Shown in pieces: positions 38,901-53,900 of a DNA stretch of 64,000 bases. The DNA lies in contig CM067322.1 in the NCBI GenBank assembly GCA_034231615.1, positions 103,873,587 to 103,937,586 on the forward strand, read 5' to 3'. Within the stretch, counting starts at the first letter, position 1. The number at the start of each line of letters is the position of its first letter. The stretch is from Meghimatium bilineatum (lineage: Eukaryota; Mollusca; Gastropoda; Stylommatophora; Philomycidae). Position numbers and translations under genes: made by a program. The notes below the pieces were generated by a model. The model ran no database searches, had not been told where the DNA came from, and saw nothing but the letters and a program-made list of their open reading frames with translations.

Positions 38901-41900
38901 TCTGATGACTATAGCTCCTAGTAACACACAGACAACATGATTGAGATCAGATATACATAAGTACTAGACACATTTCAAAACAAGAAATGAGATACCTGAT
39001 TGCCTAATGTCCCCAAATCACAACCAAGCAGATAGCCAGTTGCTGCAGCTAGCACCACAGAACCAAAGCACGAGCTGATGAAATAGCATCCAAAGCAGAC
39101 ACATACTGACAAAATCACATTCACAAACATCCTGCGGAGAAATATATAAACATTCTGTGGAGAAATATATAAACAACCTGTGGAGAAATATATAAACATT
39201 CTGTGGAGAAATATATAAACATTCTGTGGAGAAATATATAAACATTCTGTGGAGAAATATATAAACATTCTGTGGAGAAATATATATATTGCTCTTTTCT
39301 CAAGATCCAACTTAGAAAAAAAAATACAACATCATCATTCAACATCAAACCTATAATACTTCAGAGTTGAATGGATGCCACTCAGGAAACCTATAATACT
39401 TCAGAGTTGAATAGATGCCACTCAGGAAACCTATAATACTTCAGAGTTGAATGGATGCCACTCAGGAAACCTATAATACTTCAGAGTTGAATGGATGCCA
39501 CTCAGGAAACCTATAATACTTCAGAGTTGAATGGATGCCACTCAGGAAACCTATAATACTTCAGAGTTGAATGGATGCCACTCAGGAAACCTATAATACT
39601 TCAGAGTTGAATGGATGCCACTCTGGAAACCTATAATACTTCAGAGTTGAATGGATGCCACTCTGGAAACCTATAATACTTCAGAGTTGAATGGATGCCA
39701 CTCTGGAAACCTATAATACTTCAGAGTTGAATGGATGCCACTCTGGAAACCTATAATACTTCAGAGTTGAATGGATGCCACTCAGGAAACCTATAATACT
39801 TCAGAGTTGAATGGATGCCACTCTGGAAACCTATAATACTTCAGAGTTGAATGGATGCCACTCAGGAAACCTATAATACTTCAGAGTTGAATGGATGCCA
39901 CTCTGGAAACCTATAATACTTCAGAGTTGAATGGATGCCACTCTGGAAACCTATAATACTTCAGAGTTGAATGGATGCCACTCTAGAAACCTATAATACT
40001 TCAGAGTTGAATGGATGCCACTCTGGAAACCTATAATACTTCAGAGTTGAATGGATGCCACTCTGGAAACCTATAATACTTCAGAGTTGAATGGATGCCA
40101 CTCTGGAAACCTATAATACTTCAGAGTTGAATGGATGCCACTCAGGAAACCTATAATACTTCAGAGTTGAATGGATGCCACTCTGGAAACCTATAATACT
40201 TCAGAGTTGAATGGATGCCACTCTGGAAACCTATAATACTTCAGAGTTGAATGGATGCCACTCTGGAAACCTATAATACTTCAGAGTTGAATGGATGCCA
40301 CTCTGGAAACCTATAATACTTCAGAGTTGAATGGATGCCACTCTGGAAACCTATAATACTTCAGAGTTGAATGGATGCCACTCTGGAAACCTATAATACT
40401 TCAGAGTTGAATGGATGCCACTCTGGAAACCTATAATACTTCAGAGTTGAATGGATGCCACTCTGGAAACCTATAATACTTCAGAGTTGAATGGATGCCA
40501 CTCTGGAAACCTATAATACTTCAGAGTTGAGTGGATGCCACTCTGGAAACCTATAATACTTCAGAGTTGAATGGATGCCACTCTGGAAACCTATAATACT
40601 TCAGAGTTGAATGGATGCCACTCTGGAAACCTATAATACTTCAGAGTTGAATGGATGCCACTCTGGAAACCTATAATACTTCAGAGTTGAATGGATGCCA
40701 CTCTGGAAACCTATAATACTTCAGAGTTGAATGGATGCCACTCTGGAAACCTATAATACTTCAGAGTTGAATGGATGCCACTCAGGAAACCTATAATACT
40801 TCAGAGTTGAATGGATGCCACTCTGGAAACCTATAATACTTCAGAGTTGAATGGATGCCACTCTGGAAACCTATAATACTTCAGAGTTGAATGGATGCCA
40901 CTCTGGAAACCTATAATACTTCAGAGTTGAATGGATGCCACTCTGGAAACCTATAATACTTCAGAGTTGAATGGATGCCACTCAGGAAACCTATAATACT
41001 TCAGAGTTGAATGGATGCCACTCTGGAAACCTATAATACTTCAGAGTTGAATGGATGCCACTCTGGAAACCTATAATACTTCAGAGTTGAATGGATGCCA
41101 CTCTGGAAACCTATAATACTTCAGAGTTGAATGGATGCCACTCTGGAAACCTATAATACTTCAGAGTTGAATGGATGCCACTCTGGAAACCTATAATACT
41201 TCAGAGTTGAATGGATGCCACTCTGGAAACCTATAATACTTCAGAGTTGAATGGATGCCACTCTGGAAACCTATAATACTTCAGAGTTGAATGGATGCCA
41301 CTCAGGAAACCTATAATACTTCAGAGTTGAATGGATGCCACTCTAGAAACCTATAATACTTCAGAGTTGAATGGATGCCACTCTGGAAACCTATAATACT
41401 TCAGAGTTGAATGGATGCCACTCTGGAAACCTATAATACTTCAGAGTTGAATGGATGCCACTCTGGAAACCTATAATACTTCAGAGTTGAATGGATGCCA
41501 CTCTGGAAACCTATAATACTTCAGAGTTGAATGGATGCCACTCTGGAAACCTATAATACTTCAGAGTTGAATGGATGCCACTCTGGAAACCTATAATACT
41601 TCAGAGTTGAATGGATGCCACTCTGGAAACCTATAATACTTCAGAGTTGAATGGATGCCACTCTGGAAACCTATAATACTTCAGAGTTGAATGGATGCCA
41701 CTCTGGAAACCTATAATACTTCAGAGTTGAATGGATGCCACTCTGGAAACCTATAATACTTCAGAGTTGAATGGATGCCACTCTGGAAACCTATAATACT
41801 TCAGAGTTGAATGGATGCCACTCAGGAAACCTATAATACTTCAGAGTTGAATGGATGCCACTCAGGAAACCTATAATACTTCAGAGTTGAATGGATGCCA

Positions 41901-50900: not shown

Positions 50901-53900
50901 ATCGTGGAATATATTAAGAGACAACAGATCAAATGGTTTGCCCACATCAGCAGACTACCACCAGACAGCATACCACAGCAAGCTATGCTACACAGATACA
51001 GTGAAGGCAGACCTAGAGGCTGACCATGAAAACGATGGACCACCCAAATAAAAGATGCGATAAATTCCATAATATACTCAGCACACACGAGGGCCGTCTC
51101 CAGAAAACTCTACCTCTTGAAAGGCAACAAAGGGTTTAGCGAATAGATAGTAACAAAAAATATGTTTATATAACAGAATTATAACAGAAATTTGTTATAT
51201 AACAGAATTATAACAGAAATTTGTTATATAAAATATAAACAATACAAGAATAATAAAATATAATTGTGAATTGTGTAGAATGTTGTTAAACATGGAAATT
51301 TGTTACAAAATTATGCAGTATAAAGGGATTCCTTTTGAATTACAACTTATTGGTGATTAGTTTTACTGCAGTCATCTATTGTGAAATCAAACATGCTAAC
51401 ATTAACTCAATACACTTTTCACTCACCAGTTTGCTATATGAATGATGTAGCATAGACATGCATATAATGGACGTGTGAGCGGTAGAATCTCATAAGCATC
51501 CATTGTTCTATATATAGCAGGTTCAGGTGGCGCTGCTGCTGTCAAGGAGAACTGAGCGATACAAACAGTCAACCAACCCAGGATAAAAATGATAACGGTA
51601 GCTCCGTAGTTGTAGAAGAGTTTATTTAAGGAATACGGCAACAGGTACCAGTAACTCAGACCACACACAACACCTGTAACAAATGTTTACTGTTAACTCA
51701 GACCATACACAACACCTGTAACAAATGTTTACTGTTAACTCAGACCATACACAACACCTGTAACAAATGTTTACTGTTAACTCAGACCATACACAACACC
51801 TGTAACAAATGTTTACTGTTAACTCAGACCATACACAACACCTGTAACAAATGTTTACTGTTAACTCAGACCATACACAACACCTGTAACAAATATTTAC
51901 TGTTAACTCAGACCATACACAACACCTGTAACAAATGTTTACTGTTAACTCAGACCACATACAACAGGTGTAAAAAAATGTTTACTGTTAACATTTCATT
52001 TGTACATAATTTTTATTTAATTTATTTGAGAAGTTTGAAAAATCAGAAATATAACATGTTTTTCTTCTGCCCTAAGTTACCACAGTTAACTCAACGTGCA
52101 CTGTTAACAGGTCAGGTTATTGGCGCAAATAAAATGCTGATAAAACATTTCTGTTCTCGATTGCATCCTGCTGAAAATCTTGTAGGATACTATTATAAGA
52201 GAGATTCGGTGGGAGTTTCAGCACGAATGAGAAACAAAACACTTGCTTGGCCCACCATTGCACTTTGCCCACCATTGTGCTTGGCCCACCTTTAATATAC
52301 ATGAAACTGTTTTCACATGAGTGTCGAGAAATCATGCTTAGGCCATTCTTTGATATTGTCAATCCAGGATTTTCTTTGTCCACCTCTACTCCGTCTATCC
52401 TCAACTGTTCCTAGCAAAATAGTTTAAGAAAATGAGTATTGTCCTGTTACATCTCTACTCTCATCACTAGCATTTCAAATAGCATTTCACCTGTACTCAG
52501 TGGCAACCAACTCCTCTCCAAAACTTGACGTATCAGCAAATAAAAAAAACTGCTTTTATTCTAAGCCATTTTGACAGGAATGAAAAAATTACAAACAGTT
52601 ACAAAACTATGTTATTATTCATTGATATATTATTACTTCTGGGCACACTCTCAAATATATTATTACTTCTGGGCACACTCTCAAATATATTATTACTTCT
52701 GGGCACACTCTCAAATATTCAACACAAAGTTTCGTGTCAGCGAATGAGCATGAATTATGTTGTGAGTTTACAGGTGAGCTGATCTATTAGATATGATTGA
52801 TTGTCCTCTGTGCACGCCGGACATGTCCATATGTGCTCAGATCTCTGCTTCAGTAAATCTCAGGGTTATAATGGCTGATATACATTGAGCTGACGTATTT
52901 ATACCTTTCAATCCAACACATCTGATATTGGCATATTTAAATTATTTTATCTATCTATCTTCCTTCAGTAATGAGCACAGTGCACAGGACAGAAACCAGA
53001 GCTCACCAGTTTGAGCAATGTGATGTTACTGTGTGTAATTCCTGTATGTTGTTGATACCCATAGTCATACCATCTTTGATGGTTGTTCTGCCAAGTCATT
53101 TAAATTATTACTATAGGTAATTTGTTGTAATGAACAATAAATGAGTCCATCTTAAAAAAGAACAGCTAAGAATAATTGGTTCTTTCATCGCAGTCTCCCA
53201 GTAACACATAGACTTCAACTATTTTAGGGATGTTGGAATGGGGAGCCAGTGGGAATATACTCTGTAAAGTTTATCAGCAAGACATAAGGTCACACCTGGA
53301 ATATGGTTCAACTGCGTGGTGTCCTGCATCAAGCACCACATTACAAGATCTAGATAAAGTGGAAAATCAGGCGTGTTAGGATAGAGCAATTAGATAGTAG
53401 AGGTGCAGAAAATGGGGAGAACGCAAACACTTGGTGAACGCTAAGACACAATGGTACTAAAACAAGCAGCAAAGTTTAAGTGTATGCCAAGTCATCCAAT
53501 GAACGAAAGATTCCAAAATCTAGCAATCATAAACCCTAGACAGGAGTAAACTCTAAAATTTCTACCCTTTTAAGGAATAAACTCCCCTTTATGGATACAC
53601 AACACCCTTAAAATGGGTCAAGGCCATGTTTACTGGGAAACTGTGGAGAAAGAACTGAATAATTTTGCTAAATGTTTGTATTTATTTTCCAAAAACTGAA
53701 TACCTGACAGCAGTGCATGTATTGCAATGTTGACCTTGAACCGTTTGGCTGGAACAACAAATGAAATGGTTTCTGCACCACAACAAGATTTGAACTCAAT
53801 TTCATCTTCATCTGCAAGATAGTTCTTTTTCCTGACAGCTTTACTGGCATCACCAGCATCTTTCTCCTTGATTTCAACAACAGCACTTATTGTCTGAACT

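Follow-up and report, generated by a model that had tools for sequence, protein, structure and literature searches.

Tandem duplications of intron-exon borders, involving both 5' and 3' splice sites, are known from the globin genes of amphioxus (PMC3087553). The name of such structures, "mirages", goes back to the Adh3 gene; splicing is reported to be normal, and a model of intron gain is given (PMC3087553). PGBD5 has been added to the cases, and the Adh and troponin C mirages are stated to yield no aberrant mRNAs (PMC3902484). The mirage cases in the excerpts of these two papers used here are cephalochordate. Intron gain via tandem duplication has been reviewed (PMC3443670), AGGT sites in repeats have been described (PMC10809524), and human subtelomeric minisatellites have been named (PMC3486850); all five sources are cited for the excerpts that deal with these subjects. 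Comparable arrays occur in a Pecanex/PCNX4-like gene of the gastropod Meghimatium bilineatum. The gene lies on the minus strand of a 64,000-base-pair (bp) stretch of contig CM067322.1 (assembly GCA_034231615.1, positions 103,873,587 to 103,937,586), which was analysed as a whole and is referred to below as the window. Three consecutive exons of this gene each begin inside a minisatellite whose unit spans the 3' splice site. With a probability of roughly 0.7, these arrays are ordinary splice-border-spanning minisatellites, that is, mirages, which are clustered here through the regional density of arrays near a chromosome end.

Three arrays over consecutive 3' splice sites

The gene was recognised by 13 collinear tblastn matches, running from 60090 to 8689, to a provisional human PCNX4 query, and its last exon matches the Pfam family Pecanex_C (E=3.2e-17). 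Together, these matches bear out the identification of the gene as PCNX4 in the original prediction, which had been made from the letters of the window, at the level of a Pecanex-like gene. Three other exons submitted to Pfam gave no match, a phmmer search of exon 4 against PDB gave none at E up to 10, and the DNA of exon 4 has a single match in the assembly, the window's own copy. Exon borders were predicted from sequence alone, using the AG and GT positions around the tblastn matches, and some exons may be missing from the model between 17822 and 16241. The main features, in window coordinates, are as follows.

8689..60096, minus strand: PCNX4-like gene, candidate ATG to last match, 13 exon matches
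51427..51673, minus strand: predicted exon 3, first 22 bases within the 42-bp array
46427..46597, minus strand: predicted exon 4, first 13 bases equal to the 32-bp unit
38996..39131, minus strand: predicted exon 5, first 7 bases within the 23-bp array, 6 of 7 matching
51652..51992, minus strand: 42-bp array, 8.1 copies, over the 3' splice site of exon 3 (Tandem Repeats Finder, TRF)
46585..49214, minus strand: 32-bp array, 82.3 copies, over the 3' splice site of exon 4 (TRF)
39125..39286, minus strand: 23-bp array, 7.0 copies, over the 3' splice site of exon 5 (TRF)

TRF thus confirms that arrays with units of 42, 32 and 23 bp adjoin exons 3, 4 and 5, as had been proposed. Each unit holds the end of the intron, the AG and the first bases of the exon; the exon portion had been put at 8 to 22 bases, and the measured reach of the arrays into the exons, which start at 51673, 46597 and 39131, is 22, 13 and 7 bp. 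For exon 3, 21 of the 22 overlapping bases match the unit, and the exon has TGT where six upstream copies have TAT. The 13 bases of overlap at exon 4 are all identical to the unit, and the overlap at exon 5 is short and imperfect (6 of 7; GATGTTT in the exon, AATGTTT in the unit). The further claim that the start of the exon is itself the last repeat unit holds for all three exons, more weakly for exon 5.

Many of the upstream copies carry an AG at the register of the splice site: 6 of 7 for exon 3, 62 of 81 for exon 4, and 6 of 6 for exon 5. The overall figure is 74 of 94; up to about 80 potential decoy 3' splice sites had been proposed. At exon 3, 6 of the 7 upstream copies retain ACAG|GT. 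The longer motif AG|GT stands at the splice register in 7 of 8 registers of the exon 3 array, in most registers of the exon 4 array, and in 1 of 7 of the exon 5 array; CACAA or a similar sequence replaces the AG at 19 of the 82 registers of the 32-bp array. The AG is missing from 5 of the 7 decoys closest to exon 4 (hypergeometric 0.007) and from 6 of the closest 15 (0.094). Because array variants spread in blocks, this loss is not taken as a sign of selection.

The terminal AG is probably the site that is used, since the junction phases fit it. In the frames examined, the phases of junctions 2/3 (1+2), 3/4 (2+1) and 4/5 (2+1) close only at the terminal AG; the 42-bp unit preserves the frame but brings in-frame stops, and the 32- and 23-bp units, whose lengths are not multiples of 3, shift it. 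Exon definition is the likely reason for such a choice.

Origin and growth of the arrays

A mechanism of duplication can be inferred in which a short local tandem duplication, arising by slippage or template switching, straddles an intron-exon border by chance. Such a duplication would be tolerated because the last copy still links the original intron end to an intact exon. Unequal exchange or slippage would then enlarge and homogenise the array on the intron side, and exon definition would favour the most downstream acceptor module, so that the terminal AG is used. The original prediction had likewise proposed that a border was duplicated and that the array then expanded into the intron, and the arrangement of units and terminal copies fits that part of it; its other part, a preferred seeding at acceptors, is not supported (see below). 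Its view of arrays as a route of intron lengthening agrees with the array content of the gene, 27.5 kb of 51.4 kb. At 29489-36298, the 235 copies of a 29-bp array take up 6.8 kb of a 10-kb intron.

The direction of events could also have been the reverse: an array would first have formed within the intron, and the exon start would later have shifted into it, making the first exon bases repeat-derived. Such acceptor drift would suit exon 4, whose first 13 bases are identical to the unit and are not covered by the tblastn match to the human query, as well as the short overlap at exon 5. At exon 3, however, the overlap encodes CGL, which is aligned to the provisional human PCNX4 query, and the exon has kept TGT where the six upstream copies have TAT. 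For these two reasons the direction from exon to array is favoured for exon 3, and acceptor drift is considered unlikely as the explanation of the arrays.

In another alternative, the introns themselves would have been made from arrays, exonic repeats having become spliced out through their AGGT copies. The exon 3 and exon 4 units do contain AG|GT, the core that such models need in the excerpts cited (PMC3443670, PMC10809524). In introns 2, 3 and 4, on the other hand, the donors (gctgtcag|GTATTC, gcaaactg|GTGAGT and attgccag|GTATGT) are unlike the units by inspection, and these introns hold 1572, 1987 and 1976 bp of array-free sequence. Creation of the introns from arrays was rejected on the mismatch between donors and units, and its probability is very small.

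A donor-spanning duplication in the same gene

One 5' splice site of the gene, that of the exon ending at 11866, is also duplicated.

11866..12026, minus strand: predicted PCNX4-like exon, 11th match, donor duplicated
11785..11903, minus strand: 56-bp duplication, 2.1 copies, 100% matches, over the 5' splice site (TRF)

The duplicated segment includes 38 exon bases and the donor GTAAGC, with GACAAAC at the ends of the copies. It looks like a possible young stage of the process that gives border-spanning arrays.

Long arrays are difficult to assemble, and the borders might therefore be artefacts of assembly at array ends. The overlaps with the exons are nevertheless a few bases, independent of array length, and at the donor the segment is present just twice. 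An assembly artefact was accordingly set aside as highly improbable.

Another array, of 17 bp, lies at 15840-15957, 61 bp past the donor of exon 10, and repeats the donor-like sequence CAG|GTAGAC; the gene thus has potential decoys of donors and of acceptors alike.

Chance expectation within the gene

The number of borders spanned by chance was estimated with a null model in which a duplicated segment of unit length u lands on a border, rather than one in which an array merely touches an exon. The expectation was computed from the arrays present in this gene and from the length that 11 of its introns have outside arrays. The intron between exon matches 9 and 10, whose arrays span no called border, was excluded. 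A 20/40-bp array at 17024-17775, preceded by a candidate donor GTCAGC at 17822, is mostly open in the frame of exon 9 (stop-to-stop open reading frame 17437-19056).

In the 11 introns, three acceptors are spanned where 0.69 are expected (P=0.029), and one donor where 0.69 are expected; the four borders taken jointly give P=0.043, and a cruder model gives 0.018 to 0.036. The acceptor excess is thus weakly above chance. Because the gene was picked for this very pattern, these P values are not evidence for a special process.

Border-spanning arrays elsewhere in the genome

Exon borders elsewhere in the assembly (1.61 Gb, 32 contigs) were surveyed at 120 exon loci from three Pfam families, the CCT chaperonin, myosin-head and dynein AAA_6 genes, 30 of 51, 42 of 67 and 48 of 122 of the listed entries being taken. 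Some loci were picked for their nearness to contig ends, blind to arrays. Borders were predicted with provisional splice matrices; at the score cut-off, 110 donors and 110 acceptors were retained and 10 of each were dropped. Arrays were found by TRF on the loci in gene orientation, and for the null expectation each array was shifted randomly along its own flank.

Minisatellites are generally dense near chromosome ends. The end of the window lies 1.24 Mb from the end of its 105.18-Mb contig, and TRF arrays with units of at least 10 bp cover 30,536 of its 64,000 bases (48%) in 43 clusters. In the survey, measured over each exon and 450 bp on either side, the array fraction was 0.123 at 0-4 Mb from the contig end (18 loci), 0.142 at 4-8 Mb (30 loci), 0.037 at 8-15 Mb (25 loci), 0.018 at 15-30 Mb (22 loci) and 0.011 beyond 30 Mb (25 loci). 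There is, then, a clear trend for minisatellite content to rise towards contig ends, which are assumed to be chromosome ends (Spearman -0.53 between array fraction and distance, 120 loci). Since the gene lies in an array-dense region, the chance of straddling is raised for each border, which would account for three spanned acceptors occurring together.

A quite different origin would be that 3' splice sites promote tandem duplication, so that acceptors are hot spots of array birth. This is how the original prediction had understood three arrays in a row, and the occurrence of unrelated units at three consecutive acceptors of one gene, with P=0.029 given the gene's own arrays, is in its favour. 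The survey, however, gave no spanned acceptor among the 110 called, against 1.64 expected (P=0.19 for none). Only 1 of 48 acceptor-side arrays had its near end in the exon or no more than 30 bp from the border, against 3.20 expected (P=0.16 for one or none), and when PCNX4 is pooled with the survey, 3 spanned acceptors stand against 2.33 expected (P=0.41). There is no excess at 3' splice sites in the sample. A genome-wide count in which arrays overlap splice sites no more often than expected had been named beforehand as the result that would speak against the proposal, and for acceptors the sample of 120 exons gave this outcome. Seeding targeted to acceptors was rejected on the count of 0 of 110 elsewhere, and it is judged quite improbable.

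Several points weigh against the preferred explanation, chance straddling in an array-dense region. The proportion of spanned acceptors in PCNX4 (3 of 12) differs from that in the whole survey (0 of 110; Fisher P=0.0007), a contrast that would also favour targeted seeding, and it differs from that in the 48 loci no farther than 8 Mb from a contig end (0 of 48; P=0.006). That the three of 12 acceptors are consecutive has itself a chance of 0.045. The survey is small, covers three protein families and includes loci of the same gene, which are not independent; for this last reason the nominal P of 6e-10 for the gradient is too small. Array density at the survey loci is also well below that of the window. 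By the proportion of spanned acceptors, PCNX4 is an outlier. This status is attributed to the way the window was chosen and to arrays being far denser in it; a local peculiarity may also be at work.

Arrays at 5' splice sites

At donors the survey gave a different result. Arrays span 5 of the 110 donors (L054, L068, L073, L087 and L095), against 2.44 expected (P=0.094), and all five lie within 8 Mb of a contig end. With PCNX4 included, there are 6 spanned donors against 3.13 expected (P=0.098). When arrays that start in the exon or no more than 30 bp from the border are counted, a limit chosen after the histogram had been seen, the donor side has 12 of 60, against 4.71 expected (P=0.0022), compared with the 1 of 48 on the acceptor side (Fisher P=0.0057). 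In a hand inspection of 18 donor-side and 6 acceptor-side loci, with orientation corrected, the arrays of L060, L070, L097 and L102 start 7, 2, 6 and 10 bp inside the intron past the donor. There is thus a modest excess of arrays just inside introns at 5' splice sites.

These counts suggest a reading in which the starts of introns are favoured places for arrays to be born or to survive. Arrays over or next to donors would then be the true pattern across the genome, with the PCNX4 acceptors as a side case. Mutation could be the cause, for example through AG|GT-like sequence or co-transcriptional structures, or there could be a filter of selection: duplicated donors may be harmless, whereas copies of an acceptor may place decoys ahead of the exon. 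The near-border counts and the five spanned donors speak for a 5' bias. Against it, the strict counts of spanned donors fall short of significance with and without PCNX4, the 30-bp cut-off is post hoc, the borders are predicted from sequence, and neighbouring dynein exons of one gene (L094-L097) supply 3 of the 12 near-donor arrays. On balance, a 5' bias is a serious candidate whose chances are rated at a little below even.

The four dynein exons just mentioned (contig C4, about 31.48-31.49 Mb) all have donor-side arrays. That of L095 spans the donor, and those of L094, L096 and L097 begin within 50 bp after it. They form a donor-side counterpart of the PCNX4 pattern.

Other intronic features

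Two pieces of retroelements lie in introns of the PCNX4-like gene.

38026-38802, plus strand: RNase H (Pfam PF00075, E=2e-21)
13386-14789, minus strand: reverse transcriptase (PF00078, E=1e-41)

Significance

Border-spanning minisatellites are natural sets of almost identical splice sites in competition, and they give a concrete means by which introns can lengthen. The present case indicates that a striking cluster can arise from regional repeat density, and the survey leaves a testable contrast between 5' and 3' borders: donors seem to attract or tolerate arrays, and acceptors seem not to. A wider, tentative and rather doubtful proposal is that in this genome intron starts near chromosome ends are preferred places of minisatellite birth or survival, so that splice borders are taken up again and again into repeat units and introns extend from their ends. 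If this is true, PCNX4 would lie at the extreme: its acceptors would have been taken up as well, and 74 decoy acceptors would have to be passed over. The arrays would then mark a way of intron lengthening that is still going on and can be measured, and would offer a natural test of how the spliceosome chooses among identical sites.

Comparison with known systems

The gene shares single traits with three of the described systems. As in subtelomeric minisatellite clusters, of which human ones are named in the excerpt cited (PMC3486850), minisatellites are dense near presumed chromosome ends; unlike those clusters, the gradient here extends several Mb into the contigs and affects introns of conserved genes. 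As in the dual-specific AGGT sites in the tandem repeats of polyubiquitin, so far as the cited excerpt describes them, AG|GT recurs in register through the units of the exon 3 and exon 4 arrays (PMC10809524). The exon 5 units, by contrast, mostly have AG|AA, and the PCNX4 repeats are intronic, not coding. As in the excerpted account of intron gain by tandem duplication, the duplicated segment carries splice-site sequence (PMC3443670). In PCNX4, however, the repeats copy one end of a pre-existing intron, the other end is unlike the unit, and no intron has been created; by inspection, in none of introns 2, 3 and 4 do both ends come from the same repeated segment.

The closest likeness is to the amphioxus mirages of Adh3, the globins BflGb6 and BflGb9, and PGBD5, as the cited excerpts present them (PMC3087553, PMC3902484). 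In these, the unit lies across a border, whether of a 5' or of a 3' splice site, the authentic border is kept at one end, and many copies carry splice signals. A unit over the exon-intron border is found in PCNX4 at three acceptors and one donor, and the terminal copy preserves both border and predicted frame at exons 2/3, 3/4 and 4/5. Normal splicing and length instability are mirage traits reported for amphioxus, and PCNX4 is known from the sequence of one assembly. Unlike the amphioxus examples in those excerpts, the PCNX4 arrays are longer, with up to 82 copies, and occupy three consecutive acceptors of one gene. The PCNX4 arrays are a further case of the published mirage type.

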